Shown piece by piece: positions 16,901 through 53,069 of a stretch of 64,000 nucleotides of DNA. The translations under genes and the position numbers were made by a program. Below the pieces are notes generated by a model. That model saw only the letters and a program-made list of their open reading frames with translations, searched no databases and had not been told where the DNA came from. Where the stretch lies: assembly GCA_015063005.1 (NCBI GenBank), contig SUTF01000001.1, positions 1 to 64,000 on the forward strand. The letters run 5' to 3'. Every line of letters begins with the position of its first letter. Positions within the stretch are counted from its first letter, which is position 1. This DNA comes from Methanobrevibacter millerae (GTDB taxonomy: Archaea; Methanobacteriota; Methanobacteria; Methanobacteriales; Methanobacteriaceae).

Positions 16901-19900
16901 CAGGAACTTTAACAGTGATTTCAGATGCATCACCATAAGTCACATTAGTTGCAGTTACATTTACTGAAGCAGTGTTTTTAGCAATAGGGAAATTAGTGGA
17001 GTTTTTAGATGAAGTAAAGTTAATGTCTCCATTGTAAACAACCACTACAGAGTTATTTCCAATAGTTAAATTATTTTTATCCAATGTTGCAGTATTTCCT
17101 GTTAAATCGACAGTATAATTTCTTCCACCCACATAGAATGTTACGCTTCCAGTAACATTAACAGGAAGTACTGTAGCGATTACATTACCATCTGCATCTT
17201 GTGATAATGCTACATTAGATTCCGCTTGATTGATTAAGAATTTAGTTGAATTTGTTTTACTTAAATATCTGCTGTCACCGGTATAGTTTGCAACAACAGT
17301 ATGTAATCCGCCAGATAGATTATTCAACGTTAAACTACCTTTACCATCATTATCTATCGTGACTGGATGATATTGGCCATCAATTGTTAAGTTCACTCGT
17401 TTATTTTTAATATCACTAGGCAATATTACAGTAAATACAGTATTTTGACCATAAGTATGTGCTTCAACAGACAAACCTAAATTCCAGTCGTCAGTTGCAG
17501 TTACATTGAATTTATTTCCGTTATTGGATTTCAATGCATACACATTATCTCCAGGATATGTCACATTGACAACATATTGACCAGGACTGCTTAAAACAGT
17601 ACTGTTTACGTTTAGAATAGCTAATCCATTATTAACAGATACATTTTCATATTTTGTATTATTCACGAAAACAGTCAAGTTTTTGGTAACTGTAGTAGGA
17701 AGGCTTATGTAAATGGTAGCATTTTCACCAAGTTTTACGTCATTTACATTTACAGTTATATTGTAATTGCTGGTTTGACCAACACGGAATGAAAGTTTTG
17801 TGGAATTGCCGTTGAAGAAATCGTCCCCTCCATAGTCAACTTCAATATTATTATACTCACCTTCAGGAAGATCGAAAACATCGAATTGTGCTTCTCCTTT
17901 TGGATTCAATTTATCATAGTATGTTTTACCACCAACAGTAATGTTTACAAATCCTGTTGCATTCTTTTTGGCATAAGTGTCATTTACAATTACAATAATT
18001 GTTTGTTTTTCACCAACATCAATTATTAGTTTAATTGGAGTTGCATTGACAGTTGTATTTAATTTATATATAGTAAATGAAGTTAAATTGGTTGCATATG
18101 CATAGTATGCATTTTCCTCAAGAACCACACCAACATCATGGTCGCCCGTGGTTAAATACTCATCAACAGTGATTTCAAGTCTACCAGTGTAGTTTCCATC
18201 AGTGCCTTTTTCCATTGTGACATCCTTAACTTCTTTTCTTCCATGCAAATTAAAGTGGACGGTTCCATTGGAGTTTGTAGTGATTAATGCAATAATATTT
18301 TCACCATAAGTTATATTCTCAATATTAACTATAATCCAGGACTGACGTAGATGGATTGTGGATGTGTTAATTGCAATTGAACCAAAGTGATAAGTATCAC
18401 CTGAATAATTTGCAGAGATTGTGTATGTTCCAGCACCCAAATTCATTATAGGCAAGGTTGCATTAGCGACAGACCAGGCAGTGAATTCAGTATTTGGAAT
18501 ATTTCTTTCATCAATATCTGTAATATTGACAGTAATGTTCTTAACAAGATTTCCATCACCATCACATATCAAGAATGTTACATTCTGACCTTTGATGGTG
18601 TAATTACTATCAATAGTAGGTTTTAATGTAGCATTTATTAAAACCCCATCAAAAGTTACATCGATTACATCAATTTCCACAGTTACCGGCATTTTAACAT
18701 TTAATGTACCTTTATAAATCTTATTATTTTTTAAACCTTCATCAATAGGAAGAAGATGGAAATTACCCTGATAGATACATTGAATCGTATCCGCATTATA
18801 TGGTAGGACATAATGATTTCCCGCATCCTGATAAACATCATTTGTAGTATTTAGGGAACGTACAGATATAATTGTGTTTAAATTATCGTCAGTAATGTTA
18901 GCGAAGAATGGGAAATACTCATTCCATGTTACATTATAAGACTCATTATTCAACATTTTTGTTGTAGTTTTTGTCCAGATTGTTCCATTATTATATATCA
19001 CATAATCAAAGTTGTTTTTATCAAGATACAAATTACCGTCGTTCCATATTGCATAATTAACAATATTAGATACAATTTCATCATCAATATCAGTTAAATA
19101 CATTGTATTTTTTGTTGGTTTATTGGATGTGATATTGTTTTTAGATAAATGGACTTCAGCAGTTTTATTGATTAAAATTGTATTTTTTGCATTTTCAAAT
19201 GTACAGTTAACTACAGTTGAATTTCCGGAATGGAAGTATAATGCAGTACCATAATCATCATCTGAATGAGTATCATTGAAAGTCACATTCTCAATTGTAA
19301 CATTACCATCAACATACATTCCACCACCGTAATCCCAAGAGGAGTAAGTAACATTGATAGATGAATTTTTTACATTGATGTCATATACATTGCTTAAATA
19401 GATAGTTCCTCCACAATAGTTAGCTCCAGAATCATAGAAGTAGCTATCTGTAATATTTACATTGTTGGAGTTAATCCATGCAATAGATCCACCATTTCTG
19501 AATGCAGTCTCATCATCAGTAGTCATATTATATACTACAGAATCATTACAGTTATCAGCAGAAATAGATCCACCAGACAAGTGAGCTTCATTATGTTTGA
19601 ATTTTGAATTGTATATTCCCAAATTGGTTGAGTTTTCCCAGTAGATTGCTCCACCTTCACCATAAACAGTACCATCAACATCAATATGGCCTGAAGCAAC
19701 ATTATACTTAAAGTAACAATAGCTGATATTTGCATTATCAGAATTAAATCCTGCTATCGCCCCACCATCAACTTTTGCATCGGAAGAAATGAAATTCGAA
19801 TAAGTGATTGTTACATTATCTCCACATAAGACAAGAGCACCACCGTTTGTTAATGAAGTACATGATGTGAAAGCTGTGTTGTTAATGGTCATGTTGTCAG

Positions 19901-22900
19901 ATCCTTCAGCCACGTATACTGCACCTGCATTAACAGAAATACATCTTGTAAAGTTTGTGTTGATAATTGTACCATTGTTTCCTACCCAATCTATAGCTCC
20001 ACCACGACCAGATATTGCATTGGATACATAATTATCTTCAAATGTTGAATTGTCAACTATACAATTGTCACTTTGAGGACCAACATAAATTGCGGCTCCA
20101 CTGTAGTCAGCAGTGTTGTTGATGAATGTGTAATTGTTAATATGAATATTGGACACACCTAACCAGGCAAGAGCTGCACCTGATACATATGCATGGTTTT
20201 TAGTGAATGTATTGTTTATACCAAATCCTCCAGTAGCTCCTGACTCCCTAGCTAAAGCTGCACCATAATCTGCACGGTTTGAAGTGAATTGGGTATGAGT
20301 AAGGTTTACCAGAGTAGCATTACAGTCAATAGCACCACCGTTTCCAGTAGCAACATTTTCTTCAAATATTAAATGAGACAATACGCTTTCACTTGATTCA
20401 CCGTTCAGGTATAATGCCCCACCATCATGAGCGGAATTTCTTGTGAAGTTGGAAAATGTAATGTTACCTTTTTGTGCGAGCCAATCTATAGCTCCACCAC
20501 GGTTTCCAGCTTCATTTTCATCGAAAATGGAATCGAAAATCATATTAGTAGAACCTTGACCTCCGACATAAACTGCTCCACCATTTCTTACAGCAGCGTT
20601 ATCATAGAAGCGAGTGTCATTTAAACTAACACCAGATGCTACAAGATTAATAGCTCCACCATCATGATAAGCACCGTTGCGTGTGAATGTAACATTTGTA
20701 ATGTTGGTATGGCCTGAATCACCACCGATGTGGATAGCTCCGCCATCAAATGCATGGTTGTTAGTGAAATTGGAATTTTTAATAGTGTTTTCACTTGAGT
20801 CTGCATCAATAGCTCCACCTTGACCATGAGTGGCATTGGTTACATTGTTTCCTTTGAAATCACAATTATTTATAGTGAAATTGTCACTGTGTTGAGTTGC
20901 ATATATTGCCCCACCGCTTTGATCTGCGATGTTGTCTGTGAATATATAATGATTGATGTTGATGTTTTTCACATCCATCCAGGCAAGAGCAGCACCGGCA
21001 ATGCCCGCATGATTTGAGGTGAAATTGTTATATTCACCAAATCCACTAGTAGCGCCGGATTCCCTACATAAAGCAGCACCATACTCACCAGCATAATTGG
21101 ATTCGAATAATGTATATGTAAGGTTCATATGAGTGGCATCACAATCGATAGCACCACCATTTTTAGTAGCATTGTTTGATTTGAAAATCACATGAGTAAT
21201 GTTGGTGTTGCTTGAAACTCCATTAAGATATATTGCACCACCATAATTAGCAGAGTTTCTAGTAAAGTTTGAATCTGCAATGTGGCCTGCATATGCTCTC
21301 CAGAATATTGCACCACCATCGTTTCCAGCCATATTTTCATCGAATTTTGAGTCATAAATCTTATTGGTAGTACCCTGACCACCCACATAAAGAGCACCAC
21401 CATTTCTTACAGCAGTGTTTTCATAGAAACGAGTGTCATTTAAGGTAACTGCGGATGCTTGCAAATTAATAGCTCCCCCATCAATGTCAGCGTTGTTTTT
21501 TGTAAAAGTTGAATTAGTAATATTTGTATTACCGGAATTACTGCCTACAAATAAAGCACCACCATAGAATGCATTGTTGTTTGTAAAGTTAGAGTTGATT
21601 ACAGAAGCATTATCAGCAACTACATCAATAGCTCCACCATGACCACCAGTTAAATTGGTAATATTATTTCCTTTAAATATGGAATTGTCGATTATACAAT
21701 TGTCACTTCCATTACCTATATATATTGCCCCACCGCTTGCATTAGCGGTGTTGTCGTAGAAACGGTAATAATTGATATGGATTCCAGTTACATTCATCCA
21801 GGCAAGAGCAGCTCCCGCAATATCTGCATGGTTTAATCTGAACGTGTTATTTTTACCGGATCCCCCAGTAGCTCCAGATTCCCTACATAAAGCAGCACCA
21901 TACTCACCTGCATAATTTGATATGAAGGTTGTGTTGTAAAGTTTACCTCCAGTAGCATTCCAGTCAATAGCCCCACCATTATAAGTAGCATTATTTCCGG
22001 TGAATGTTACGTTTGTGATTTGACTGTTGTCAGAATTTCCTCCAATGTAAACAGCACCACCATATTCTGCAGAGTTTTGTGTGAAGTTAGTGTTGAATAT
22101 TTGTCCTGCAGAAGCATTCCAGTTAATTGCTCCACCTTTACCATATGTAGCAATATTATTTGTGAAATATGAGGAGTTAATGAAATTGTTTTCACCGGTT
22201 CCTCCCACAAATATCGCCCCACCTTCAGATGCCGTGTTTTCTCTGAAATAAGTGTTATTTACTGCAACAGAAGATGCTGTTAAATCAATTGCACCACCAA
22301 TAGTAATCGCATTGTTTCTTAAAAATCCTGAATTAGTAATGTTAATGTTTCCTGAATCACTTCCAACATAGAGTGCACCACCAGTGTATGCATTGTTATT
22401 AATGAAAGTTGAATTTAAAATATTACCATCAACAGCATACCATTCAATAGCTCCACCATGACCACCAGTGAAATTAGTTACGTTGTTTCCAATGAATGTG
22501 GAATTGAAAATAGTACAGTTAGCACTGCCAACACCAACATATATTGCACCACCACTGAAATCCGCTGTGTTATCAATGAATGTATATGTATCAATGTAGA
22601 TTTTTTCTGCTTTTATCCATGCAAGAGCTGCACCAGCAATATCTGCATGGTTTAACCTAAATGTGTTATTTCTACCTGATCCACCGGTAGCACTTGCTTC
22701 CCTACATAGAGCAGCTCCGTTTTCAGCAACATTTGATTCGAAAGTAGTGTTGTAAAGACGCATTTTGGTAGCATTACAATCAATTGCACCACCATTTTTG
22801 ATAGCTTTATTGTTTGAGAACAGACACTCATCAATAGTACAATCTGAAGCAGATGAATTGTAGTATATACCACCACCATAACTTCCCGCATAGTTATATA

Positions 22901-25595
22901 CAATAGCCGAATTATTTATGATTCCGTTTTGACCAGCCCAGAAAATAGCTCCACCTTTATCTACACTATCATTATATGTTCCGCTCGAATTACCATTGAT
23001 AAATACAATATCATTTAAAATCACATTATTTGCTGTAATATTGAATATTCTGGAATAGCCTAATGCATTAATAGAATATCCATTACCGTTAATTGTAATT
23101 GATTTAGTGATATTCATACAATAGTCGTCAGGATATGTGACTTTATCCCCATAATCTTCCCTGGAAATAAATTCGAAAGACCTTGACAAATTAAGAACAT
23201 CACCATCATTAAGAGGGTCAATTAAAGTTTGAAGATACTTGAAATCACCCATATTCCATATGTCAAGTGTGGTGAAAGTAGCAGTGGCTTCCTTATATAA
23301 ATAAGTGTTATCTTCAAATCCGACTGAAACATCATATTCAGTGCTACGTTCTAAATTTTCCCTGACATTAATAATGAACTTTTCATAAATCCTGTTGAAA
23401 TATGTATCATAACTAGCCGTAGTGTTTAAAATCATCTGAGTAACAGGTGCGCCTTCATGAGTAACATTAATAACTATTCTGTATGAGTTTCTATTAGGAT
23501 CGTTTGGACTTGATATATTAACAATACCCATTATAGTGTTTAAATCAGCTGCAGATGATACGTTTAATAAATAGTCATTGTTATTATTGAAATAAGAACT
23601 TTTGATGTGATTTGCATATGTAGAACCGTCAGCACCTTCAGGTGTAACAGAAGTTCTGCCATTTTCCAATACCCCCTTGCCATCAAATTTGTTATAATCA
23701 CGACAGACTACAGGATTGTCACCAAAACCATCAACGACTACATAGTATACTGCACCACCATTATGAGATGCATTATTATTTATAAAAGTACAGTTTGTAA
23801 CATATAATGCTGAACCTATGCAACCTGCATAGTATAATCCACCACCATTATATGCATTTGATGCATTGATTATCAAATTATTGAAGTATATGTAATTGTA
23901 ACTACCAACATAAAGTGCACCACCATATTTAGTAGCATCACTGCCATAAATAGTTCCATTATCTATAGTTTGATGATCCGCATTAACATATAATGCTCCA
24001 CCATCAGTAGTAGCAGTACAATTAATAAGATTAATGTTTTTAATATCATTTCCCTGAGAGTTTATATATATTCCACCACCATTAACAGCAGTAGAATTTA
24101 TGATAGAAATATCTCTTATAGGATAAGAATTAGTACCTGACCAGTATATAGCACCACCATTACTTTTAGAACTTGAATTAGTAATATTAATGTTATATAG
24201 AGTACCATAACTACCTGTCCAGTATATAGCACCACCTAAACCTGTAGCAGTAGAATTAATTATTTCTACATTTGATAATATTGAACTAGTATCAAACACC
24301 CTTACAGCCCCACCATTTTGAGCTGAAGAATTAATAATAGTTATTTGAGAAAGTGTGCTTCCAACATCATATTTAATATCCAATGAACCTCCATTTTGAG
24401 AGGAACAATTGATAAAAGTAATGTTTTTAAATTGAGAGTATCTGGAATTTAAATACATTCCTCCACCATTAGCATTAGATTTGCCTGTAGTACAATTTAT
24501 AAAACTACAGTTTTCAAAATAAAAATATCTTGAAGCCTGGTTTGAAGAAAATCCTCCGCCCTCATAAACCGCATAATTATTCTCAAAAGTTAAATTGTAT
24601 AAATAGAAATATTCAAATCCATTTTCTGACCCATCCATACGAATTGCTCCACCACGACCAGCATTATTGGATAAAAATGAAGAATTAATAATATTTACAT
24701 TTTTAACCCAATTATTAAAGTGTATGGCACCGCCATAAGCATTAGTAGGGTTGTTAGTTGTCACATAATTTTCTTCGAAGGTATTGTTGATTATATCGAC
24801 ATATCTTGATTGCTCAACAAAAATTGATCCTCCGCTACCATATGCATAATTTTTTCCGAAATAGGAATCCCTAATAATAACATTCTTTTGATTGTCCTTA
24901 ATTTCAATTGCACCACCATGAGTCGCAGCATGATTTTCTTCAAAAGAACAATTAGTTATAAGAGTATTTGTAGCTGTAGTATATACTTCTATAGCACCAC
25001 CACCATAACCATTTCCAGTAAATGAAGCATAATTTCTATAAAAAGTAGAATTTTTAATTATTGAGTTAGTACTTCCTATTCGTATAGCACCACCCTGAGT
25101 TGCGGAGTTATCTTCAAAACTACATTCATCAACGATTAATGTTGAACTACTATCAGTTAAAATAGCTCCCCCATAATTACTGACACCATTTGTAAAAGTA
25201 ATTCCCCTCAGGGTAACGGTTGCACCCTGAATATTAAATATCCTTGCTTTAGAGTTAGCATCAATAATTACATTCCCATTTCCAGTGATAGTTACGTCCT
25301 TTGTTATAGTAATCCCGTTTGACAATGAATCAGAACTACTATAGGTATAATTTTTATCAAGAGTTATATCTCCCCCGTTAGTTACTAAATTTTTCAACGC
25401 TGTAAATGATTCCGAATTCTCATTAACAGACACCATATCATCATTAGTTGATGAAAGTGGGTTTGCAGAGACATCATTTAGCGAGAGTAAATTTTTGTCA
25501 GTTGTATTTAAATCACTATCTGCCGCCGCCACGGATGAAAGTGATAAAAATAAACATAATATTAAACAAACCAATACAATTTTAAATTTATCCAT
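7959..25595 (-). CDS. giant adhesin-like surface protein (~5,880 residues): beta-helix head, Ig-like stalk, membrane anchor
   Basis: The start is ATG 25595, where GGAG lies 9 nt upstream; the in-frame TTG at 25610 is part of that ribosome-binding region. A signal peptide (LCLFLSLSSVAAA) leads into a right-handed parallel beta-helix (about residues 65-635; GGAI, NCTF, NNAT repeats), an unlike interlude (635-780), and a second, longer beta-helix (780-2215) with 819-bp super-repeats. Residues 2280-5830 are about 40 Ig-like modules of about 87 residues (GNVTV, YSGD signatures), including seven near-identical 173-residue pairs. The end is a hydrophobic span (PIIALLLVLLAIGS) followed by RRFKK, a membrane anchor. 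It is very rich in Asn/Thr/Val and N-glycosylation sequons. Surface adhesion is inferred from the family; the ligand is unknown. Confidence 0.93.
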   Translation of the reverse strand: MDKFKIVLVCLILCLFLSLSSVAAADSDLNTTDKNLLSLNDVSANPLSSTNDDMVSVNENSESFTALKNLVTNGGDITLDKNYTYSSSDSLSNGITITKDVTITGNGNVIIDANSKARIFNIQGATVTLRGITFTNGVSNYGGAILTDSSSTLIVDECSFEDNSATQGGAIRIGSTNSIIKNSTFYRNYASFTGNGYGGGAIEVYTTATNTLITNCSFEENHAATHGGAIEIKDNQKNVIIRDSYFGKNYAYGSGGSIFVEQSRYVDIINNTFEENYVTTNNPTNAYGGAIHFNNWVKNVNIINSSFLSNNAGRGGAIRMDGSENGFEYFYLYNLTFENNYAVYEGGGFSSNQASRYFYFENCSFINCTTGKSNANGGGMYLNSRYSQFKNITFINCSSQNGGSLDIKYDVGSTLSQITIINSSAQNGGAVRVFDTSSILSNVEIINSTATGLGGAIYWTGSYGTLYNINITNSSSKSNGGAIYWSGTNSYPIRDISIINSTAVNGGGIYINSQGNDIKNINLINCTATTDGGALYVNADHQTIDNGTIYGSDATKYGGALYVGSYNYIYFNNLIINASNAYNGGGLYYAGCIGSALYVTNCTFINNNASHNGGAVYYVVVDGFGDNPVVCRDYNKFDGKGVLENGRTSVTPEGADGSTYANHIKSSYFNNNNDYLLNVSSAADLNTIMGIVNISSPNDPNRNSYRIVINVTHEGAPVTQMILNTTASYDTYFNRIYEKFIINVRENLERSTEYDVSVGFEDNTYLYKEATATFTTLDIWNMGDFKYLQTLIDPLNDGDVLNLSRSFEFISREDYGDKVTYPDDYCMNITKSITINGNGYSINALGYSRIFNITANNVILNDIVFINGNSSGTYNDSVDKGGAIFWAGQNGIINNSAIVYNYAGSYGGGIYYNSSASDCTIDECLFSNNKAIKNGGAIDCNATKMRLYNTTFESNVAENGAALCREASATGGSGRNNTFRLNHADIAGAALAWIKAEKIYIDTYTFIDNTADFSGGAIYVGVGSANCTIFNSTFIGNNVTNFTGGHGGAIEWYAVDGNILNSTFINNNAYTGGALYVGSDSGNINITNSGFLRNNAITIGGAIDLTASSVAVNNTYFRENTASEGGAIFVGGTGENNFINSSYFTNNIATYGKGGAINWNASAGQIFNTNFTQNSAEYGGAVYIGGNSDNSQITNVTFTGNNATYNGGAIDWNATGGKLYNTTFISNYAGEYGAALCRESGATGGSGKNNTFRLNHADIAGAALAWMNVTGIHINYYRFYDNTANASGGAIYIGNGSDNCIIDNSIFKGNNITNLTGGHGGAIDVVADNASVINSNFTNNNAFYGGALFVGSNSGNTNITNSTFTKNNADIDGGAINLQASAVTLNDTRFYENTAVRNGGALYVGGQGTTNKIYDSKFDENMAGNDGGAIFWRAYAGHIADSNFTRNSANYGGAIYLNGVSSNTNITHVIFKSNNATKNGGAIDCDATHMNLTYTLFESNYAGEYGAALCRESGATSGFGEYNNFTSNHAGIAGAALAWMDVKNININHYIFTDNIADQSGGAIYATQHSDNFTINNCDFKGNNVTNATHGQGGAIDADSSENTIKNSNFTNNHAFDGGAIHIGGDSGHTNITNVTFTRNGAYHDGGAINLVASGVSLNDTRFYDNAAVRNGGAVYVGGQGSTNMIFDSIFDENEAGNRGGAIDWLAQKGNITFSNFTRNSAHDGGALYLNGESSESVLSHLIFEENVATGNGGAIDCNATLVNLTHTQFTSNRADYGAALARESGATGGFGINNTFTKNHAYVSGAALAWLGVSNIHINNYTFINNTADYSGAAIYVGPQSDNCIVDNSTFEDNYVSNAISGRGGAIDWVGNNGTIINTNFTRCISVNAGAVYVAEGSDNMTINNTAFTSCTSLTNGGALVLCGDNVTITYSNFISSDAKVDGGAIAGFNSDNANISYCYFKYNVASGHIDVDGTVYGEGGAIYWENSTNLGIYNSKFKHNEAHLSGGSISADNCNDSVVYNMTTDDETAFRNGGSIAWINSNNVNITDSYFYDSGANYCGGTIYLSNVYDINVKNSSINVTYSSWDYGGGMYVDGNVTIENVTFNDTHSDDDYGTALYFHSGNSTVVNCTFENAKNTILINKTAEVHLSKNNITSNKPTKNTMYLTDIDDEIVSNIVNYAIWNDGNLYLDKNNFDYVIYNNGTIWTKTTTKMLNNESYNVTWNEYFPFFANITDDNLNTIISVRSLNTTNDVYQDAGNHYVLPYNADTIQCIYQGNFHLLPIDEGLKNNKIYKGTLNVKMPVTVEIDVIDVTFDGVLINATLKPTIDSNYTIKGQNVTFLICDGDGNLVKNITVNITDIDERNIPNTEFTAWSVANATLPIMNLGAGTYTISANYSGDTYHFGSIAINTSTIHLRQSWIIVNIENITYGENIIALITTNSNGTVHFNLHGRKEVKDVTMEKGTDGNYTGRLEITVDEYLTTGDHDVGVVLEENAYYAYATNLTSFTIYKLNTTVNATPIKLIIDVGEKQTIIVIVNDTYAKKNATGFVNITVGGKTYYDKLNPKGEAQFDVFDLPEGEYNNIEVDYGGDDFFNGNSTKLSFRVGQTSNYNITVNVNDVKLGENATIYISLPTTVTKNLTVFVNNTKYENVSVNNGLAILNVNSTVLSSPGQYVVNVTYPGDNVYALKSNNGNKFNVTATDDWNLGLSVEAHTYGQNTVFTVILPSDIKNKRVNLTIDGQYHPVTIDNDGKGSLTLNNLSGGLHTVVANYTGDSRYLSKTNSTKFLINQAESNVALSQDADGNVIATVLPVNVTGSVTFYVGGRNYTVDLTGNTATLDKNNLTIGNNSVVVVYNGDINFTSSKNSTNFPIAKNTASVNVTATNVTYGDASEITVKVPVAQTGYVTITVNDTLVNVTVKIVNGEAKFNARGLDAGKYIVNVTYLGDDNYGVAQNHTYFNITKNNELAAEVIGQNVTVKDNASFVINITDDFNGKVNIAIGDVGYYDNITKALIAIDKLPAGIYTANVTFYGDNNYNNKSVEVKFEVSRVTPIINVTIDDVTYPNKSVAIVDVSDYANGTVDIAVGDKHFNKTISNGHVQIDLTGLSAGVKDALVNFTTSDDYNTNLTASVKFNIGKANSTVVITQDGQNVIATVSAGATGNVTFIINGKKYFKDVNDDGKAILENVLTNGNNTVVVIYSGDANFTSAFNATNNTVDLKDALVNVSATTVVYGNDSVITVKVPAAQKGYVRVVVNGTAIDVVLEIKEGTATFNASGLDVGRYEVNVTYLSDGIYGINQNSTFFNITKADLNASVIAQNVTVDVNISFIITILNDFKGNVSIEVDSVKYDGAVKTLIEMEKLLKGAKQATVTFYGDDNYNDLVLNPSFTVSVINPTINVTITDTTYPNNATATVKVSGKANGTIEIKVGDKTYSKEIADGEVVIELDGLGAGLKEANVTFTSADDYNSDVNTTYKFFISKAQSHIEINVTPSDLSAGDDAIINITVSCTGNPIVYIDDEVIDDKSLENNRIIIDKSKLTVGKHTVVVYYPGDDNYESSSDSYTFTVNKHKSMVNVTVKDTPYNEVAQITVQTPIAQTGYVTITVANKNYTAKLENGIAKFNVTGLNVDKYAVEVIYDGDENYTVQTNDTTFNVTQINLQPTVIGVNVTDAMNSTFIMVVPDDYSGQVTITVGGETYTGDAASIIQMAKLTVGEKEAHVVFADDKNYKGTELDVKFNVTAAEKQLPVTTVVNSTTVVVTVPENITGNVTVVLPNGTNKTVIVENGSAIITLENMTPGVNNITVIYTDGNNTITTNATITIPKHDTKMNVTVTEAKAGGNATVTVEIPVDATGNITVTIDGKTYTTDNITDGKAVITIENLTAGDKTLIVEYGGNANYTANYTLANFTVAPGKVDSDIIVIDHGNGTVVVVVGDNATGNVTIKVGDKEFNGTVVDGVAVVNVTNVTPGIHEVEVIYSGDDSHTNATVEANITAPKYDAGMNVTVGEAKEGEPIVITVEVPVGATGNVTVYVGGENHTGVIDPVTGKAVVTVDNVSDGDHTIAVEYTGDSNYSANYTVANMTVEKVKSDSEIIVVDHGNGTVVVVVGDNATGNVTVKVGDKEFNTTVVDGVAVVNITDVVPGNHTVEVIYSGDDSHTNATVEANITAPKYDAGMNVTVGEAKEGEPIVITVEVPVGATGNVTVYVGGENHTGVIDPVTGKAVVTVDNVSDGDHTIAVEYTGDSNYSANYTVANMTVEKVKSDSEIIVVDHGNGTVVVVVGDNATGNVTIKVGDKEFNGTVVDGTAVITVEDITPGVHDVEVIYSGDDSHTNATVGANITAPKYDAGMNVTVGEAKEGEPIVITVEVPVGATGNVTVYVGGENHTGVIDPVTGKAVVTVDNVSAGDHTIAVEYTGDSNYSGNYTVANMTVEKSKIDSDLTVVDYGNGTVVVVVGDNATGNVTIKVGDKEYNATVIDGKAVVTLDNITPGIHDVEVIYSGDDSHTNATVGANITAPRYDAGMNVTVGEAKEGEPIVITVELPVGATGNVTVYVGGENHTGVIDPVTGKAVVTVDNVSAGDHTIAVEYTGDSNYSGNYTVANMTVEKSKIDSDLTVVDYGNGTVVVVVGDNATGNVTIKVGDKEFNGTVVDGTAVITVEDITPGVHEVEVIYSGDDSHTNATVGANITAPRYDAGMNVTVGEAKEGEPIVITVELPVGATGNVTVYVGGENHTGVIDPVTGKAVVTVDNVSAGDHTIAVEYTGDSNYSGNYTVANMTVEKSKIDSDLTVVDYGNGTVVVVVGDNATGNVTIKVGDKEFNGTVVDGTAVITVEDITPGIHDVEVIYSGDDSHTNATVEANITAPKYDAGMNVTVGEAKEGEPIVITVEVPVGATGNVTVYVGGENHTGVIDPVTGKAVVTVDNVSAGDHTIAVEYTGDSNYSGNYTVANMTVEKSKIDSDLTVVDYGNGTVVVVVGDNATGNVTIKVGDKEFNGTVVDGTAVITVEDITPGIHDVEVIYSGDDSHTNATVEANITAPKYDAGMNVTVGEAKEGEPIVITVEVPVGATGNVTVYVGGENHTGVIDPVTGKAVVTVDNVSAGDHTIAVEYTGDSNYSGNYTVANMTVEKSKIDSDLTVVDYGNGTVVVVVGDNATGNVTIKVGDKEYNATVIDGKAVVTLDNVTPGIHDVEVIYSGDDAHTNATLNTTIDVSKGITPITVEVDSIHVGDNAIVKVTLAKDANGNVTIEIDGKTYTKEIVDGVAIFEIENLIAGEKSVFATYGGGDYYASAHASNQFNVSKVDSSLTVEVGDVKVGENVTVTVHVPKDATGQVLIDIDGVGYYVNVTDGVGTIQIPYLENGTYDMALTYVGDDKYLPSSNSDTFKVEKIASFVIPIANNIVVGENENIILTVPIDATGNVTVVIDNEEFNFNLNNGLLSAVYREGEKYSVAVSGGNGELVISGLPKGEYFVSVRYNGDYKYLPSENVTTFIVSKQNTPMNVIDQGNGTIEVILPSDAVGNVTVSDGLNNYTAEVINGTAVINLENTTPGKHEVVVKYDGNDEYSSNTTNIVVDIPKYDTPISVETANISVGETETVIVTLPEDATGTVTIEINGKEYTTTEIIAGKATFKVDGLAFGNKTVAVKYSGDNNYNDNYTTGQFVVSKVPSTIHAVGKDINVGTDEIITAFVPNDAHGRVLVNINDVGYYGDIINGKANIIIPELPSGIYTAEVIFEGDDKYLPSETQLRFTVSKVNTPISATGDEIPQGKDATVVVKVPSDATGTVTITIDNKQYTTEVKDGKAVFTVPGLVKGDYDVNASYSGDKKYDANDTITEVEVYFNETPAHPEDVNHHKMDNGRSSSLDSYATGNPIIALLLVLLAIGSTQIRRFKK
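10063..13695 (-). repeat. seven near-identical 519-bp tandem repeats
   Basis: Seven copies of a 519-bp (173-codon) unit; for instance, the segment encoding KYDAGMNVTV or RYDAGMNVTV recurs seven times at 519-bp spacing between about 10,490 and 13,610. Each unit encodes two Ig-like modules. Copies differ mainly in short interchangeable patches (SDSEII or IDSDLT; NGTVVDGTAV or NATVIDGKAV), which points to gene conversion or unequal crossing-over. Confidence 0.95.
19950..22860 (-). repeat. 819-bp super-repeats in the beta-helix region (about 3.5 copies)
   Basis: The segment encoding GAALAW recurs with gcaagagc at 20167, 20983, 21802 and 22621, spaced 816, 819 and 819 bp. Surrounding motifs (GAALCRESGATGG, NNTFRLNHA) repeat in register. 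A unit is 273 residues, many beta-helix coils. Confidence 0.85.
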
Positions 25596-25604
25596 ATTAA
25601 CAAT

Positions 25605-25645
25605 CTCCAATAAATTAAATATTCATTTTCGAACGTTTATATGGT
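25605..25645 (-). promoter_or_regulatory. probable promoter and ribosome-binding site of the giant adhesin gene
   Basis: On the minus strand CCATATAAAC (25644-25635) is a TATA-box candidate. A transcription start about 25 nt downstream (near 25614) would give a leader of about 20 nt carrying GGAG at 25608-25605 before the ATG at 25595. Confidence 0.45.
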
Positions 25646-29893: not shown

Positions 29894-30586
29894 TTACAAT
29901 TTTAAAGTAGCCACAGACATTGCCTTAAATCCTATGTATATCTCCTTGCCTATAGTGAGATTTAATTCTTTTTCAGCAGACACAGTAATATCTGAATAGA
30001 TATTTACTCCCCCAACGTCCACATTAACGCGAATAATCTCATTATTAAGCTTCATCTCAACAATAGTACCCTTGATTATATTACGAATACTTGATTTTTG
30101 AGGTTCCAGCATTAAAAAGATATTGTCATAGCTAATTAATGCCAAAACTTTATCTCCGACAACATAGTTTTTATTTAAAGGGATGTTAATTTCAAAACTG
30201 GTCATTTTAACAGTCATTACTCCTTTTGATTCATCAACCGCTAAAACTTCTGCTTCAATCTCATTAACATCCTTGTGAAGCTCCATAATTGCATTAATCT
30301 TTTTACACTCTTTCAAGATAGAATATCCTTCTTCGGTTAAGGTTGTGCCCCCACCACCACCTTTACCTCCTTTAGAAGTACTCACAATTTTTACTTGAAG
30401 AGTAGATTCTATTTTATCAATATAGTTAAGTGCAGTCCTATAAGATATTTTAACTACCTTAGCGGATTCGGTAAGAGATCCGGTATCCAAGATAGATTCC
30501 AATAGCTGATATTTCTTACTATCAAGCAGGAAAGAATTACCATCTACATTAATCTTATATTCAACACCCGCTTTTACATCAGTCAT
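29894..30586 (-). CDS. ModE-family molybdate/tungstate-responsive regulator
   Basis: This is a winged-helix regulator with C-terminal oxyanion-binding domains. Residues about 20-100 are the ModE N-terminal DNA-binding domain (LLESILDTGSLTESAK, then ISYRTALNYIDKIE), ending in the diagnostic glycine run KGGKGGGGG. Residues about 112-165 and 170-230 are two Mop/TOBE domains (the second with SSIRNIIKGTIVEM and KAMSVATL), which bind molybdate or tungstate. ATG 30586 follows GGAGG at 8 nt; the in-frame TTG at 30601 is only the ribosome-binding region. Expected targets are Mo/W transporters and formylmethanofuran dehydrogenase operons, none of which are in this window. Confidence 0.92.
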   Translation of the reverse strand: MTDVKAGVEYKINVDGNSFLLDSKKYQLLESILDTGSLTESAKVVKISYRTALNYIDKIESTLQVKIVSTSKGGKGGGGGTTLTEEGYSILKECKKINAIMELHKDVNEIEAEVLAVDESKGVMTVKMTSFEINIPLNKNYVVGDKVLALISYDNIFLMLEPQKSSIRNIIKGTIVEMKLNNEIIRVNVDVGGVNIYSDITVSAEKELNLTIGKEIYIGFKAMSVATLKL

Positions 30587-30655
30587 ATTATAATCCTCCA
30601 AAGATATATAACATTAACTATTTATAATTTTTATATAAAATAAGGTTTTCTATTA

Positions 30656-32280: not shown

Positions 32281-32310
32281 GTTAAAAATAGAATGTAGAA
32301 AAATCTACAT
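32281..32310 (-). terminator. hairpin after the Ser-rich protein gene
   Basis: ATGTAGA (32293-32299) and TCTACAT (32304-32310) form a perfect 7-bp stem with an AAAA loop, overlapping the stop codon. A moderately T-rich stretch follows on the minus strand. Confidence 0.5.
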
Positions 32311-32766
32311 GAATAATTTTGATATAATAATTGTTGCAAAAAATCCAACGATAAATACGGCAATTAATATAACAATATTTGTTAAAGTGAAAAAATTATC
32401 ATTATTGTTTTCAATATTCGAAGAATTAGCCTCTGAAGTTGTATTATTTGTGTTATTATTTACTGCTTGAGATGCATCACCAGAACCACCATTTCCATTA
32501 GAAGAGGGGTTTGAAGATTGAGATGATCCACTTCCGCCAGATGCCGAACTTGAAGATTGAGAACTAGAACCGCTAGAACTACTATAAGAAGAACCTCCAC
32601 TACTCGAACCAGAACTTTGTGAAGTATGATCGACTGAAGCACTATCTGATGAAGAAGAGACTTCCTCAACATATTCAGTTCCATGACCTGGATGTGCAAA
32701 AGCAATTCCAACACAAGACAACATAAAAATAACTGAAATAATTAAAGCCAAATATTTGTATTTCAT
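32305..32766 (-). CDS. Ser-rich membrane-anchored surface protein with mature N-terminus HPGHG
   Basis: This 153-residue protein has a signal peptide (KYKYLALIISVIFMLS, cleavage expected after AFA). The mature chain would then start HPGHGTEY, followed by a long Ser/Gly/Gln-rich linker, an Asn-rich stretch, and a C-terminal transmembrane helix (IVILIAVFIVGFFATIII). No family recognised. The exposed His-Pro-Gly-His could bind a metal, like the N-terminal histidines of NikL-type transporter accessories; this is inference. GAGG precedes the ATG. It lies 53 bp downstream of the double-FmdE gene, but a strong hairpin sits between them. Confidence 0.8.
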   Translation of the reverse strand: MKYKYLALIISVIFMLSCVGIAFAHPGHGTEYVEEVSSSSDSASVDHTSQSSGSSSGGSSYSSSSGSSSQSSSSASGGSGSSQSSNPSSNGNGGSGDASQAVNNNTNNTTSEANSSNIENNNDNFFTLTNIVILIAVFIVGFFATIIISKLFM

Positions 32767-32779
32767 AATTAAAACCTCA

Positions 32780-32814
32780 AAAAAATAAAAAAAGATTATT
32801 TGAAAATAATCTTT
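32780..32814 (-). terminator. strong hairpin terminator after the double-FmdE gene
   Basis: AAAGATTATT (32791-32800) and AATAATCTTT (32805-32814) form a perfect 10-bp stem with a TGAA loop. On the minus strand a run of T bases follows. It starts 6 bp after the upstream stop codon and ends just before the ribosome-binding site of the next gene. Confidence 0.7.
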
Positions 32815-32819
32815 AAAAT

Positions 32820-35675
32820 CTATTTTTTACGTCTCATATATCCTACACCAAACAATGCACCAATTATCAATACCGCTACAACAGAATAAATAAGATTATT
32901 ATTAGAAGATTTAGTTACTGGTTTTTTAGAAATCTCATAAGATTTTGATTCGCCAGATTCTGATGAAGAATCATCAGGAGAATCTTGTGAAGTTGAAGTG
33001 TCAGAAATTGGCCTTGTGCTTGAAGAAGTTCCTACACTAGAATAGCTTCTTTGTGCATTATTTGAACCAACAGAACTGGATGAGGGAACATTTGAATTAG
33101 GTTGAGTGTTAGTATTAGTATTCATGTTGGTATTAGTATTATTAGATTCTTGTGGATTATTATTTTGCATTGATTTCAACAAGTCTTCTTTACTAATATC
33201 TTCTAAACCTCTTAAATACTTAAGACTACTACCTTCACCACCTGCAAGAATAGTTTGGTATTGTTCTTGTGTAATCCATCTGCTATCACCATGAGCGACA
33301 GTATGATAATTTTCAGTTAAGATAGGATTTGGATTACCATTATACAAATCAATGAATGCTTGAATTTGGGCAGCTCTTTTAGATTCTGAAGTTGCATAAG
33401 CACTTAAATCTGGACTTGGCCATTTATAACTAATAGATACAGCCTGACCAATATTATTTGCTGAATCCCATATGATTAAAATACCTTCTTCATCTAAGTC
33501 GTCTGCACCTTTATATTCATCACTTGTTAATTTTTGAACAAGATAATTACCAAGACCCGGTGATACATCTAAAATGTATTCAAGACTGTCATCTTTACAG
33601 TATTGTTCGTTTGCAATATAGATATAGGATTGATTTTCATTTAATGGGAAATTCTCTTGAATGTAATCAACGATGAAGAATCCAGGTTGTACACCCGGAC
33701 ATGCGTGGTTGTGGAACAAGAATGACATGATTTGATCAAATGCCGGTTTTGCAGACCATGCATTGGAAATACTTTGAATACTGAAGTAATTTCCGTCAGG
33801 ATAAGCACTAGCACTGATTCCTCCAGATAATGCGGAATTATTTAATGTAGTTATATTGATGTTATATACCTGACTTCCATTATAGTCACCAATGAAAAAG
33901 GTTCCGTCTTCGTTATATCTCATATAAATACTCATTAGTGAACCGTCATCTTGTTGCAATAAAAAGTTAAACCATAATGGTGTCCAAATAGCTTTATGAT
34001 CAGGCAATAATGTTTTTCTAGATAACCTAGAACCTAACTCTTCAAATAATCCATCCCAACATCCTTCTGTTGATTGTTCTTTTATCATCACATAACCAGC
34101 AGAAGTTAAAACCATTAAATTAGGCATGTCTTTATGTATTTTAACACCTAATTCTTTAGCATAGATGTCTTTAGCCATACTTGCTGCTTTTTGACCAATA
34201 CCCTTAAAGTCTTCATAAGTTAATGATCCTTTATTTAAGATAACATTATCACGAGTAGCATTAGGTAAATCTAAGCCTTGGATATATGCATAATCCAAAC
34301 CATGTGAATTTGTTGCATTTATTACATGACCTTCCTCGTCTTCATCATCATCTTCAACTCCGACCAAATATAAATATTGTTCTTTGTTTAATCCTTCTTT
34401 TTCAATTAAAATTTTAACAAGACTTGCAGGATTTTTATAGATTCTATTAATCCACCAAGTATTATATTTTAACTGTTCCAGACTACCGTCACCGGTAATG
34501 CCAGTTTCTTTTTCGAACAATTGTTTATTTGTATCTGAGTCATATTCCATTACAACTATAGTTCCTCTGTTTGTTTGACCGTTCCAACGAATAAAACCAA
34601 TCATCTTTTCAGTAGCTCCGGTTGAAGTAGTATTAAATCCTACATATGAAGTTTTACCAGAAGTTGCATCCAAAAAGAAGATGACAGCATCGTTAGCAGA
34701 ATCACCAGGAATACCTAATACTTTATATGAAGTGATATCCCCAGGAGATTGTTTACCATTTCCAGTTTCTTTGATTGGAGGATAATATTGAAGTAATGCT
34801 TTAGTAATTGTGTATCCACCCAGAGTTCCTTCACAGATATGACCGTGGAATGCAGCTTCTTGCAATACATCAAATGTTACTCCATCATTCCATCCATTAG
34901 CTAAACTAGCAAATGAAAATGCATTTTCTCCACCAACGGCTTTAAATAATGCATTCCATTGAGATGTTGTCATATATTCAGAAATTGTACCCAAATATAC
35001 CTCTTTTTTATTTCCATTTAAGAAAATTGCAGCATTTAAATCATTGCCTTTTTTAACAACAAAACAAAAATCAATAGGATCAACAGCGGTTTGGCGTAAC
35101 ATTAGAATATTACCCCTACCATAAGAAATATATTCAGTTGCATAGTTAAGAATTCCATCAATAGCAGCTTCACTAGTTTTACCATTCAATTTAGGTACAC
35201 CAGCAGTAGTAATAGCCAATACTTCATCGGCATTTTTAAAATCAAGTAATGAATCAGCTCTCGCAGTTACATCATGCCCTAGTTTATAGCTTTCACTAGC
35301 TAATAGGTTGAATGATATTGGAGATTTAGCATTAACATCAACTAATTGATATTGTGTTAAATAACCAGGAGCTGAAACAGAAACATTAATTTTATCAGAT
35401 GCGACTGCAGAATTAAACTTAACATCATAATATTTTGATGAAGTGTTATAATCTTGAGAAATAACAGAATTATCCGCAACACCAAATGTTGGAGTAATTT
35501 TGCTATTATCATCTGCATATTCAAAATTAACAGCTATATTAATTTGAGATAAATCAGAATTAACAGAATCTGTTAATAATGAATCATCTGAAGAGATTTC
35601 TTCAGCTGAAACTGCACCAATAAATAAGGTGAACATAATAACCAAACTCATTAGTACAATAAATTGTTTTTTAAT
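32820..35675 (-). CDS. membrane-anchored surface protein with two FmdE-like domains
   Basis: Residue numbers count from ATG 35651 (943 residues). A signal peptide ends in AVSA. Residues 20-120 are a beta-rich module. A domain with LAITTAG...TSEAAIDG (about 126-265) precedes a first FmdE-like domain (AFHGHICEGTLGGY, 267-280; ANDAVIFFLDATSGKTSY, 319-336). The pair recurs: LMVLTSAG...STEGCWDG (about 484-640), then FLFHNHACPGVQPGF (645-659) and YCKDDSLEYILDVSPG. Residues 830-915 are an Asn/Ser-rich stalk and 919-937 a membrane helix before RRKK. Family FmdE domains bind metal through the His/Cys motif. I extend the start to an ATT at 35675: GGGAGG sits exactly 7 nt upstream, and the extension supplies the KK of a normal signal peptide. 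ATG 35651 is the conservative alternative. Function unknown; neighbours suggest metal handling. Confidence 0.85.
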   Translation of the reverse strand: MKKQFIVLMSLVIMFTLFIGAVSAEEISSDDSLLTDSVNSDLSQINIAVNFEYADDNSKITPTFGVADNSVISQDYNTSSKYYDVKFNSAVASDKINVSVSAPGYLTQYQLVDVNAKSPISFNLLASESYKLGHDVTARADSLLDFKNADEVLAITTAGVPKLNGKTSEAAIDGILNYATEYISYGRGNILMLRQTAVDPIDFCFVVKKGNDLNAAIFLNGNKKEVYLGTISEYMTTSQWNALFKAVGGENAFSFASLANGWNDGVTFDVLQEAAFHGHICEGTLGGYTITKALLQYYPPIKETGNGKQSPGDITSYKVLGIPGDSANDAVIFFLDATSGKTSYVGFNTTSTGATEKMIGFIRWNGQTNRGTIVVMEYDSDTNKQLFEKETGITGDGSLEQLKYNTWWINRIYKNPASLVKILIEKEGLNKEQYLYLVGVEDDDEDEEGHVINATNSHGLDYAYIQGLDLPNATRDNVILNKGSLTYEDFKGIGQKAASMAKDIYAKELGVKIHKDMPNLMVLTSAGYVMIKEQSTEGCWDGLFEELGSRLSRKTLLPDHKAIWTPLWFNFLLQQDDGSLMSIYMRYNEDGTFFIGDYNGSQVYNINITTLNNSALSGGISASAYPDGNYFSIQSISNAWSAKPAFDQIMSFLFHNHACPGVQPGFFIVDYIQENFPLNENQSYIYIANEQYCKDDSLEYILDVSPGLGNYLVQKLTSDEYKGADDLDEEGILIIWDSANNIGQAVSISYKWPSPDLSAYATSESKRAAQIQAFIDLYNGNPNPILTENYHTVAHGDSRWITQEQYQTILAGGEGSSLKYLRGLEDISKEDLLKSMQNNNPQESNNTNTNMNTNTNTQPNSNVPSSSSVGSNNAQRSYSSVGTSSSTRPISDTSTSQDSPDDSSSESGESKSYEISKKPVTKSSNNNLIYSVVAVLIIGALFGVGYMRRKK

Positions 35676-35787
35676 ATTTTAGCCTCCCATAATATGTATT
35701 TAATTGAAAAAACATTCCAATTAATACAAAGCATTGTTTGTAGTAATAATAATATATATTTAATTATTACAAAATTAATAAAAAATA

Positions 35788-35801
35788 TAAAAAAGTATTA
35801 C
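35788..35801 (-). promoter_or_regulatory. shared 14-base motif upstream of the double-FmdE gene
   Basis: On the minus strand GTAATACTTTTTTA is identical to 51027-51040. It sits within a perfect palindrome, AAAAAGTA-T-TACTTTTT (35790-35806). It lies about 115 bp upstream of the start and about 26 bp upstream of a TATA-like TTAAATATATATTA (about 35760-35747). Proposed operator or activator site; the regulator is unknown. Confidence 0.45.
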
Positions 35802-35806
35802 TTTTT

Positions 35807-36123
35807 AGAAAACTTGAAAAATTAAAATCCATTAAAAAATAATTAATAACTCAAAATAGGTACATATAATCATGAATTTATATTAAAAGATTATTAAAAG
35901 TCTAAATATTAATAATAATAAAAAAATAAAATTTAATTAAAATTTAAGGAAAAAATATAATATAAAAAAATCAGTAATACTATTAACAATGTTATATTTT
36001 AATTATAAGAATACACATCAAATAAATTTTACAATAACCAAATTATCCAACATTAATAAAAAAAATAGGATAATTAAATTAGAAAATTTGATAAAAAAGA
36101 TATAAAAAAGAAATAAATTTAAA
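35807..36123. other. AT-rich intergenic DNA between divergent genes
   Basis: About 315 bp of AT-rich sequence with no ORF or RNA gene. It holds one further GTAATACT at 35974-35981 but no other clear signal. Confidence 0.55.
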
Positions 36124-36152
36124 TAATACTTTTTTTAAAAAAATTAATATAA
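36124..36152 (+). promoter_or_regulatory. motif variant and TATA region of the CbiM-like gene
   Basis: TAATACTTTTTTTA (36124-36137) is a near-copy of the 14-base motif, about 6 bp upstream of a TATA-like TTAATATAATAAG (36143-36155). A transcription start near 36172 would leave a short leader with GGTGAT before ATG 36195. Confidence 0.4.
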
Positions 36153-36194
36153 TAAGAATAAAATATATTATTTTTGTAATACAAAGGTGATTGA

Positions 36195-36818
36195 ATGCAT
36201 TTACCTGATGGGATAGTACCTCTTAATCAAGCAATAATTTATTGGATAATAACTTTTATAATAATGGCAATTTTTCTTTATAAATTTTCAAAAGATGAAA
36301 ATAAAGAAAAAAGAATAATTTCAATAGCGATTTTTAGCGTTTTTACAATTACAGTAACATCACTGTCTATTCCATCACCATTAGGAGTGCCGATACACTT
36401 CTTTTTAATACCCCTTGTTGCGATTGTACTTGGACCAAATACCTCAAACATTGTTTCATTCATAAGTCTTTTAATGCAATTCCTTGTGTTAAATATGGGA
36501 GGAATAACAATACTAGGGGCGAACTTTCTAGTAATGGGATTCATACTCTCCTATGTAACATATGGATTTTACAGATTATTACAAGATTTGAATAAAAAAA
36601 TTGCCATATTCGCATCAACTATAATAGGAATAATGGCTGCAACATTTGGACAAGTGGCAATTCTACTTTTATCTGGAGCAATGAACTTTGATGTTCTTCT
36701 TGCAACATTAATACCTTTCTATTTATTCATATCAATAATAGAAGGATTTGCTAATATAATAATTATCAGTGCTATTGAAAAGATTAAACCTGAAATAATG
36801 GAGATAAATAAAATTTAA
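36195..36818 (+). CDS. CbiM/NikM-like substrate-binding component of a nickel or cobalt ECF transporter
   Basis: This 207-residue membrane protein with about 6 hydrophobic segments starts MHLPDG. The N-terminal Met-His-x-Pro-Asp-Gly is the hallmark of CbiM/NikM, where the amino terminus and His2 ligate the Ni or Co ion; this also fixes the start. A second conserved region is PIHFFLIPLVAIVLGP and later FGQVAILLLSG. GGTGAT precedes the ATG. The transmembrane (CbiQ/NikQ) and ATPase (CbiO/NikO) partners are not in the window, so this gene is separated from the usual cluster. It is 9 bp upstream of a small anchored protein and divergent from the double-FmdE gene. Nickel (F430, hydrogenase, CODH) or cobalt (cobamide) are both plausible; the sequence does not decide. 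Confidence 0.88.
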   Translation: MHLPDGIVPLNQAIIYWIITFIIMAIFLYKFSKDENKEKRIISIAIFSVFTITVTSLSIPSPLGVPIHFFLIPLVAIVLGPNTSNIVSFISLLMQFLVLNMGGITILGANFLVMGFILSYVTYGFYRLLQDLNKKIAIFASTIIGIMAATFGQVAILLLSGAMNFDVLLATLIPFYLFISIIEGFANIIIISAIEKIKPEIMEINKI

Positions 36819-36827
36819 GGTGATAAA

Positions 36828-37310
36828 ATGAAAAAAATATTAATATTAACAATATTGATTTTATTAGGAATAACCGCAGTATCAGCACATGGAGTTGACG
36901 TGACAGCAGACACCATGGTTATTGCAAATGATACAAACGGACAATTCGTGAAAGATCTGGCTGATGCAAATGGAATTAACATTAGTGTTTATAAATTTAC
37001 ATCACAGGATGAAGTGGAACATATCCTAGAACACAGCGTCAACAACACAAACAAAAGAATATTGCTTGTAGCATATCAGGACAGCGGAAACGAATTTTTA
37101 AAAAATCATCCGGACATGTCCAATAGGATAATTGTTGTCAATGATGTGAATAACGATAGTGTAGTCCAAGGACTAAACAACATCATTAATGCACAAACAC
37201 AACCCACCCAAAGTGGAAGTAACTTTGGTCTGCCATTAGCTATGGGAATAGTGATAGGCTTGATAATCGGGCTTGGTGTTGGTGTTTTAATTATGAAAAA
37301 AAGAAGTTAA
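36828..37310 (+). CDS. small membrane-anchored protein partnered with the CbiM-like gene
   Basis: This 160-residue protein has a signal peptide (KKILILTILILLGITAVSA), after which the mature chain would start HGVDVTADT. A compact alpha/beta domain follows (about residues 22-120; ILLVAY and RIIVVNDVN strands), then a Thr/Gln/Ser linker, and a C-terminal Gly-rich membrane helix (LAMGIVIGLIIGLGVGVLI) ending KKRS. It is 9 bp after the CbiM-like gene with GGTGATAAA before the ATG, so surely one operon. It occupies the place of the small NikN/CbiN or NikL accessory subunit of such transporters, but I see no clear sequence match to either. Confidence 0.8.
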   Translation: MKKILILTILILLGITAVSAHGVDVTADTMVIANDTNGQFVKDLADANGINISVYKFTSQDEVEHILEHSVNNTNKRILLVAYQDSGNEFLKNHPDMSNRIIVVNDVNNDSVVQGLNNIINAQTQPTQSGSNFGLPLAMGIVIGLIIGLGVGVLIMKKRS

Positions 37311-51054: not shown

Positions 51055-51107
51055 CTATAGTGGATATAATTAAGAAATTGATTATACATCAAAATAGGAG
51101 ATTATTG

Positions 51108-52631: not shown

Positions 52632-53069
52632 ATGAACAGAGGCATTGCACGATATTTAATAATTACTTTTATATCAGCTTTAATAATTACATATGTAATA
52701 TGCTATTTTTTACAGATGCATGGACTTAAAGAGGTATTGTATATTGCCTGTTTGTTCGGACTCTATTTTTCAGTAATATATGCAGTAAATGTGCTTGTTG
52801 AGGAAAAAGTAGTTCCAAATAATTATAAAAGGTTTCTTCTTGTAGTGGCACTTATTCTTTTATTTGATGTTGTTTTTATTGTTCTGGTGCCATTTATATT
52901 CAAATTTGATTTATTCTCAACAAATGATGTGATTTCTTTAACTTTTAATGGTGCAACATATAATTTAATGTTAAATGGAATATTTTTCATTGCATTATTT
53001 TCCGTACTAATACTGATTTTAAATTACATATTATACCGATCAGATAAAAAAATCGAAAATAAAAACTAA
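52632..53069 (+). CDS. small four-helix membrane protein
   Basis: This 145-residue protein has four strongly hydrophobic helices (YLIITFISALIITYVICYF, a second near 38-55, LLVVALILLFDVVFIVLV, and MLNGIFFIALFSVLILIL). The termini are charged; the C-terminal tail DKKIENKN is probably cytoplasmic. GGGAT precedes the ATG. The stop overlaps the converging ogt stop by 4 nt. No family recognised. Confidence 0.75.
   Translation: MNRGIARYLIITFISALIITYVICYFLQMHGLKEVLYIACLFGLYFSVIYAVNVLVEEKVVPNNYKRFLLVVALILLFDVVFIVLVPFIFKFDLFSTNDVISLTFNGATYNLMLNGIFFIALFSVLILILNYILYRSDKKIENKN

Follow-up and report, generated by a model that had tools for sequence, protein, structure and literature searches.

A predicted surface nickel-acquisition locus with a double-FmdE protein and a solitary CbiM in Methanobrevibacter millerae

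Genes and features of the locus

The window analyzed here is a 64,000-nucleotide stretch of Methanobrevibacter millerae DNA. A first-pass annotation of its sequence had placed four genes around one intergenic region, and open reading frame coordinates confirmed all four in position. This four-gene locus is real and conserved. Three of its products are called HPGHG, FMDE2 and HGVD below, and the fourth is a CbiM. Its features are as follows:

32305-32766, minus strand: HPGHG, 153 aa, with a signal peptide, predicted mature N-terminus HPGHG, Ser-rich stalk and C-terminal TM helix
32820-35675, minus strand: FMDE2, predicted surface-anchored protein with two FmdE modules (32820-35651 if counted from the first ATG)
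34425-34850, minus strand: FmdE domain 1 of FMDE2, HGHICEG, with H269, H271 and C273 and without the fourth ligand Cys
33453-33716, minus strand: FmdE domain 2 of FMDE2, HNHACPG, with H647, H649, C651 and C685
35673-35675, minus strand: ATT proposed as start codon of FMDE2, 7 nt downstream of GGAGG (35683-35687)
35743-35770, no strand assigned: GTAATA-N16-TATTAC, a predicted operator of NikR type that overlaps the TATA box of FMDE2
36195-36818, plus strand: solitary CbiM/NikM-type ECF S component, MHLPDG (PF01891, 2e-42, 145.7 bits)
36828-37310, plus strand: HGVD, 160 aa, with a mature N-terminal His, Rossmann-like domain and C-terminal TM helix

The motifs named in the annotation were all found, HGHICEG at residues 269-275 and HNHACPG at residues 647-653 of FMDE2, and MHLPDG in CbiM. 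The proposed FmdE similarity was not rejected by profile search, as FMDE2 matched Pfam FmdE (PF02663) in two stretches (8e-21, 74.9 bits against a curated cut-off of 22.9), each domain exceeding the cut-off when scored separately. Structure search agreed: the AF2 model of FMDE2 (pLDDT 76.7, pTM 0.77) had 2glz as its best Foldseek PDB match (prob 1.00, TMt 0.59, E 6e-3). A PDB sequence search with FMDE2, and with FMDE2 and HGVD profiles, returned nothing useful. The ligands of the Zn/Ni site of DSY1837 (2glz) are H15, H17, C19 and C55 (PMC2954224), to which H647, H649, C651 and C685 of domain 2 are equivalent. Both His/Cys motifs are thus present as claimed, but domain 1 has no fourth ligand Cys and only domain 2 carries a complete site. 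Relatives of FMDE2 keep H269/H271/C273 and H647/H649/C651/C685. FMDE2 is predicted to be secreted, and its C-terminal end consists of a stalk of low complexity and a TM helix. An ordinary FmdE of 189 aa is also encoded in the window's genome, beside an ABC importer; the plasmid records searched held no FMDE2.

The extent given for FMDE2 needed one change: the gene is in place, but the ATT at 35675 probably serves as its start, which adds eight codons ahead of the first ATG (35651). Most FMDE2 relatives have no ATG preceded by a ribosome-binding site. They have instead GGAGG or GGGGG, then 7-8 nt, then ATT-(K/R/N)-K, from which a proper signal peptide results (homologous sites in loci L067-L106 and L124-L150). 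ATT occupies this site in about 25 genomes and ATA or ATC in none, with ATG there in two relatives, whereas ATT makes up only 55% of the Ile codons of these genes. FMDE2 thus probably has a conserved AUU start, as judged from this comparison. GGAGG followed by ATT, ATA or ATC, with no usable ATG, was also seen in HPGHG homologues, surface CobN and some adhesins. In a crude test, AUH starts were not enriched in secreted genes (6/30 secreted against 32/150 other genes).

The predicted mature ends also stood, with cleavage placed between VSA and HGVD and between AFA and HPGHG, and the His is kept across relatives. HGVD and HPGHG each have a signal peptide, predicted cleavage just before the His, and a C-terminal TM helix. 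H21 (mature residue 1), H65 and H69 of HGVD are invariant in 33 sequences. The HPGH motif is kept in the HPGHG family, whose members were found in 26 of the loci examined, adjoining FMDE2 or CbiM. Neither HGVD nor HPGHG matched a Pfam or NCBIfam family above cut-off; nor did 32 HGVD relatives, which gave no assignment to CbiN, NikN, NikK or NikL. The predicted structure of HGVD is a small Rossmann-like domain, and Foldseek returned generic Rossmann-like matches only, none at E 0.001.

The suggestion that the locus holds part of an ECF transporter was borne out for CbiM, in which the PF01891 match spans the whole length. M1, H2 and H68, which we take to be the ligand positions of NikM, were kept in 33/33 sequences. 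However, the gene is solitary: no CbiN, CbiQ or CbiO is encoded in the window locus, which therefore does not hold a complete ECF Ni/Co transporter with a Q T unit and an O ATPase. Given that two other cbiM genes in the window's genome each lie beside their own CbiQ and ABC ATPase, we regard this CbiM as an extra, solitary S component.

Elsewhere in the window there is a very long, adhesin-like open frame of 5883 aa (7959-25610, minus strand). The product of 51060-52538 (plus strand) is a second anchored protein, which has no FmdE domain and is related to the other (non-FmdE) module of FMDE2; a membrane protein follows at 52632-53069 (plus strand); relatives' proteins of the 51060-52538 type adjoin a DUF2162-ExbB-DUF2149 module.

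Conservation and gene neighbourhood in relatives

We searched 139 Methanobacteriaceae genomes, counting FMDE2 at full-type similarity. FMDE2 was present in 40/139 and HGVD in 47/139, with both in 37 genomes, FMDE2 only in 3, HGVD only in 10 and neither in 89 (Fisher 5e-21, indicative only, as the genomes are related and P is overstated). The neighbourhood check upheld the proposed association, since the genes co-occur and co-localize across genera, mostly side by side. Linkage of FMDE2, HPGHG, CbiM and HGVD persists though all flanking genes change, and the order FMDE2-HPGHG-CbiM-HGVD-DUF2162-ExbB-DUF2149, or a similar one, occurs in several genera. The divergent arrangement of the window recurs in another clade, and most named relatives that carry the locus belong to Methanobrevibacter. 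In the genome of one relative, FMDE2 has a CbiQ gene next to it. In a second family the HPGHG-CbiM-HGVD trio was found in 4/4 loci examined, without an adjacent FMDE2, and HGVD in 8/8 genomes searched. HypE lies near the trio in that family and in two Methanobacteriaceae loci.

Four loci (L130, L148, L142 and L149) come from MAGs labelled Bacillales, Clostridia and Actinomycetota. L130 and L148 have the appearance of methanogen contigs binned in error. At 37% identity, L142 is divergent; an ExbB gene lies near its FMDE2.

This linkage bears on what FMDE2 might be. Solved FmdE structures hold Zn at the site (PMC2954224), region 829-943, the anchor region of FMDE2, is common to large surface proteins, and related A-type modules without FmdE exist (the 51060-52538 protein), all of which would suit an extracellular enzyme or adhesin with structural Zn and coincidental neighbours. 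We consider this quite unlikely, given that FMDE2 is tightly linked to CbiM and HGVD in several genera and has an operator, described below, in common with nickel genes. A link to molybdenum or tungsten appears more improbable still. FmdE was named after the molybdenum formylmethanofuran dehydrogenase operon, and a ModE/Mop-type regulator gene (29894-30601) lies about 2.2 kb off and is kept in the closest relatives, but a ModE-like gene is not nearby in most other genera, and both the operator geometry and the companion genes are of nickel type.

Many relatives have DUF2162-ExbB-DUF2149 as the next genes of the operon. The window locus has no ExbB module and likewise no Hmu-type CobN with a T-U-V module; a surface CobN followed by DUF2162-ExbB-DUF2149 is encoded elsewhere in the window's genome (L115 9671-11392). 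CobN-DUF2162-ExbB-DUF2149 operons in which CobN has a signal peptide were seen in Methanobacteriaceae at L115, L120, L123 and L131. CobN-HmuT-ExbB-DUF2149 is the hmuSTUV gene order (PMC10434189). A nicotianamine synthase gene (PF03059) lies beside the locus in three genera (L085 3380-4177, L095 3844-4647 and L100 389-1189). In two of these three a GNAT acetyltransferase gene stands between the synthase and the locus, and a GNAT relative is found near nikA in the window's genome (L175 9233-9805).

These neighbours raise the possibility that the surface proteins bind a nickel chelate (a nicotianamine-like metallophore or an F430-type tetrapyrrole) and free or pass on its nickel in the manner of HmuS/CobN. 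In its favor, DUF2162-ExbB-DUF2149 comes after CobN or after the FMDE2-CbiM-HGVD genes, as in the hmuS-T-U-V order (PMC10434189), and the synthase adjoins the locus as above. However, neither the ExbB module nor nicotianamine synthase is adjacent in the window, and the synthase occurs in 95/139 genomes and is not tied to FMDE2. We hold this reading to be doubtful, though the least improbable of the alternatives. An extended form of it is just as tentative: in Methanobacteriales, a nickel-repressed surface machinery in which the double-FmdE protein replaces the CobN chelatase of Hmu-type systems might, with ExbB-type power, pull nickel from metallophore or F430 chelates and feed a solitary NikM.

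An inverted repeat at the FMDE2 promoter

Alignment of the intergenic regions of nine divergent loci revealed a single long stretch of conservation, GTAATA-N16-TATTAC, which surrounds the TATA box of FMDE2. This 28-bp repeat was present in 9/9 aligned loci with at most one half-site mismatch, and shuffles of the window give an expectation of 0 occurrences. Within 300 bp upstream of genes, the exact repeat was found at 14/33 FMDE2 genes against 1/442 background genes, and with at most one mismatch at 21/33 against 11/442. The sole exact background case is next to an FMDE2 gene, to which the site probably belongs. In the window, CbiM-HGVD has a separate promoter, in which no convincing 28-bp NikR-type repeat was found.

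Exact copies were also found at other nickel-related genes. One lies 82 bp before a NikA-like gene in the window's genome (C6:61828, L175), and such copies stand upstream of NikA-like genes in four genomes, the window's own included. In relatives they occur 45 bp before a cbi/nikMNQO operon, 56 bp before hmdC, upstream of hmd and around hypA (further exact-repeat loci: L197, L199, L200, L205-L207, L209 and L210). An exact copy was also seen before a gene for a MinD/CooC-like ATPase. Some exact repeats are intragenic or show no connection to nickel. Genome-wide, one-mismatch matches were not enriched (30 against 48 in the reversed control), so the repeat alone is not diagnostic, and we argue regulon membership from exact, gene-proximal, cross-genome sites only. 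On these, GTAATA-N16-TATTAC marks a predicted NikR regulon in Methanobacteriaceae.

In the second family (L159-L162), conserved AGTATTACTTTT half-sites lie upstream of HPGHG, near a TATA-like stretch; AGTAATAAAAG half-sites are present in 3/4 of these loci, at a wider spacing from AGTATTACTTTT than in the 28-bp repeat.

NikR is known to bind inverted repeats of 27-28 bp; reversed half-sites of the form GTAACAC-N13/14-GTGTTAC occur in D. psychrophila (PMC545781). The FMDE2 repeat shares this 6-16-6 geometry (6-bp half-sites 16 bp apart, 28 bp in all), but its half-site is GTAATA(A/C) and not GTATGA or GTAACAC; when the seventh base is C, GTAATAC differs from GTAACAC by one base per 7-bp half-site. 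As the geometry is that of NikR operators, nickel is the most likely metal, and nickel limitation would be expected to induce FMDE2. NikR_C was detected in 14/14 relatives tested, and NikR was not found in the window's own genome, which is 89.5% complete. Hmd is a nickel-free hydrogenase. Expression of hmd is raised under nickel limitation (PMC3087415; PMC12350162).

The first-pass annotation had read the genes as a joint metal-capture stage for nickel or cobalt. The predicted operator, common to FMDE2 and to nickel genes, supports that reading and indicates nickel rather than cobalt. Cobalt, taken up by the same machinery for corrinoid supply, seems unlikely. The CbiM family accepts Co2+ or Ni2+, the NCBIfam matches, which lie below cut-off, bear cobalt-type names, and surface CobN genes neighbour the locus in one genus. 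Nickel is favored because a NikR-type operator is common to nikA, nikMNQO, hypA and hmd/hmdC. An Rfam scan of the window found one tRNA only and no cobalamin or other riboswitch, and HypE near the trio in the loci named above also speaks against cobalt, as does CobN1 of M. marburgensis, which is abundant only under nickel limitation (PMC12350162).

Proposed mechanism and comparison with known systems

Taken together, the locus is probably a nickel-limitation-induced cell-surface nickel-acquisition apparatus, although we infer metal binding, relay, transport and the identity of the regulator from sequence. NikR or a NikR-like repressor at the TATA box would keep FMDE2 off when nickel is sufficient and leave the promoter upon nickel limitation. 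FMDE2, HPGHG and HGVD would be secreted, each anchored by its C-terminal TM helix, and would hence act outside the membrane. Surface FMDE2 would capture Ni2+ or a labile nickel complex via its FmdE His/Cys sites, and HPGHG and HGVD, with their exposed N-terminal His, would pass nickel to the M1-H2-H68 site of CbiM. HGVD may stand in for the extracytoplasmic part of CbiN, NikN or NikK. CbiM could then import nickel with HGVD alone as its N-type partner, or with CbiQ/CbiO borrowed from other cbi operons; the minimal transporting unit in a known system is CbiM with CbiN (PMC7689651). In many relatives, energy from the proton-motive force may come via the HmuTUV-like DUF2162-ExbB-DUF2149 encoded in the same operon.

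The nickel demand of methanogens is among the highest of all organisms, owing to Mcr with F430, [NiFe]-hydrogenases and CODH. How gut and rumen methanogens are supplied with nickel is unsettled; the locus puts names to surface components, points to a metal and has an operator of a predicted regulator type, and it also suggests a role for an extracellular FmdE protein. If exposed, such nickel-capture proteins would be candidate targets to lower ruminant methane. The findings bear as well on a question raised by the HmuS authors, namely the archaeal use of CobN-type chelatases with a partner module (PMC10434189). The surface parts of this variant of ECF-type nickel acquisition appear to be new, being undescribed in the openly accessible literature covered here.

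Compared with the FmdE family (solved members DSY1837/2glz and Ta1109/2gvi), FMDE2 has the core fold, the H-x-H-x-C...C site and a metal-transporter neighbour; metal-ion transporters adjoin most FmdE genes according to Axelrod et al. (PMC2954224). It differs in being predicted to be secreted and anchored, in its two FmdE domains with an extra module before each, and in having no zinc-finger tail. With NikMNQO, CbiMNQO and NikKMLQO the locus shares a CbiM/NikM S component with M1-H2-H68 and an extracytoplasmic partner encoded alongside, whereas it has no Q or O component and adds a surface FmdE protein. HGVD shows no detectable similarity to CbiN (PF02553), being built of one C-terminal TM helix and a Rossmann-like domain. 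Finally, the relatives' operon ends in DUF2162-ExbB-DUF2149, as hmuT-U-V does in the Hmu heme system of Bacteroidota (hmuYRSTUV), but FMDE2-HPGHG-CbiM-HGVD take the place of CobN/HmuS, and there is no outer membrane.
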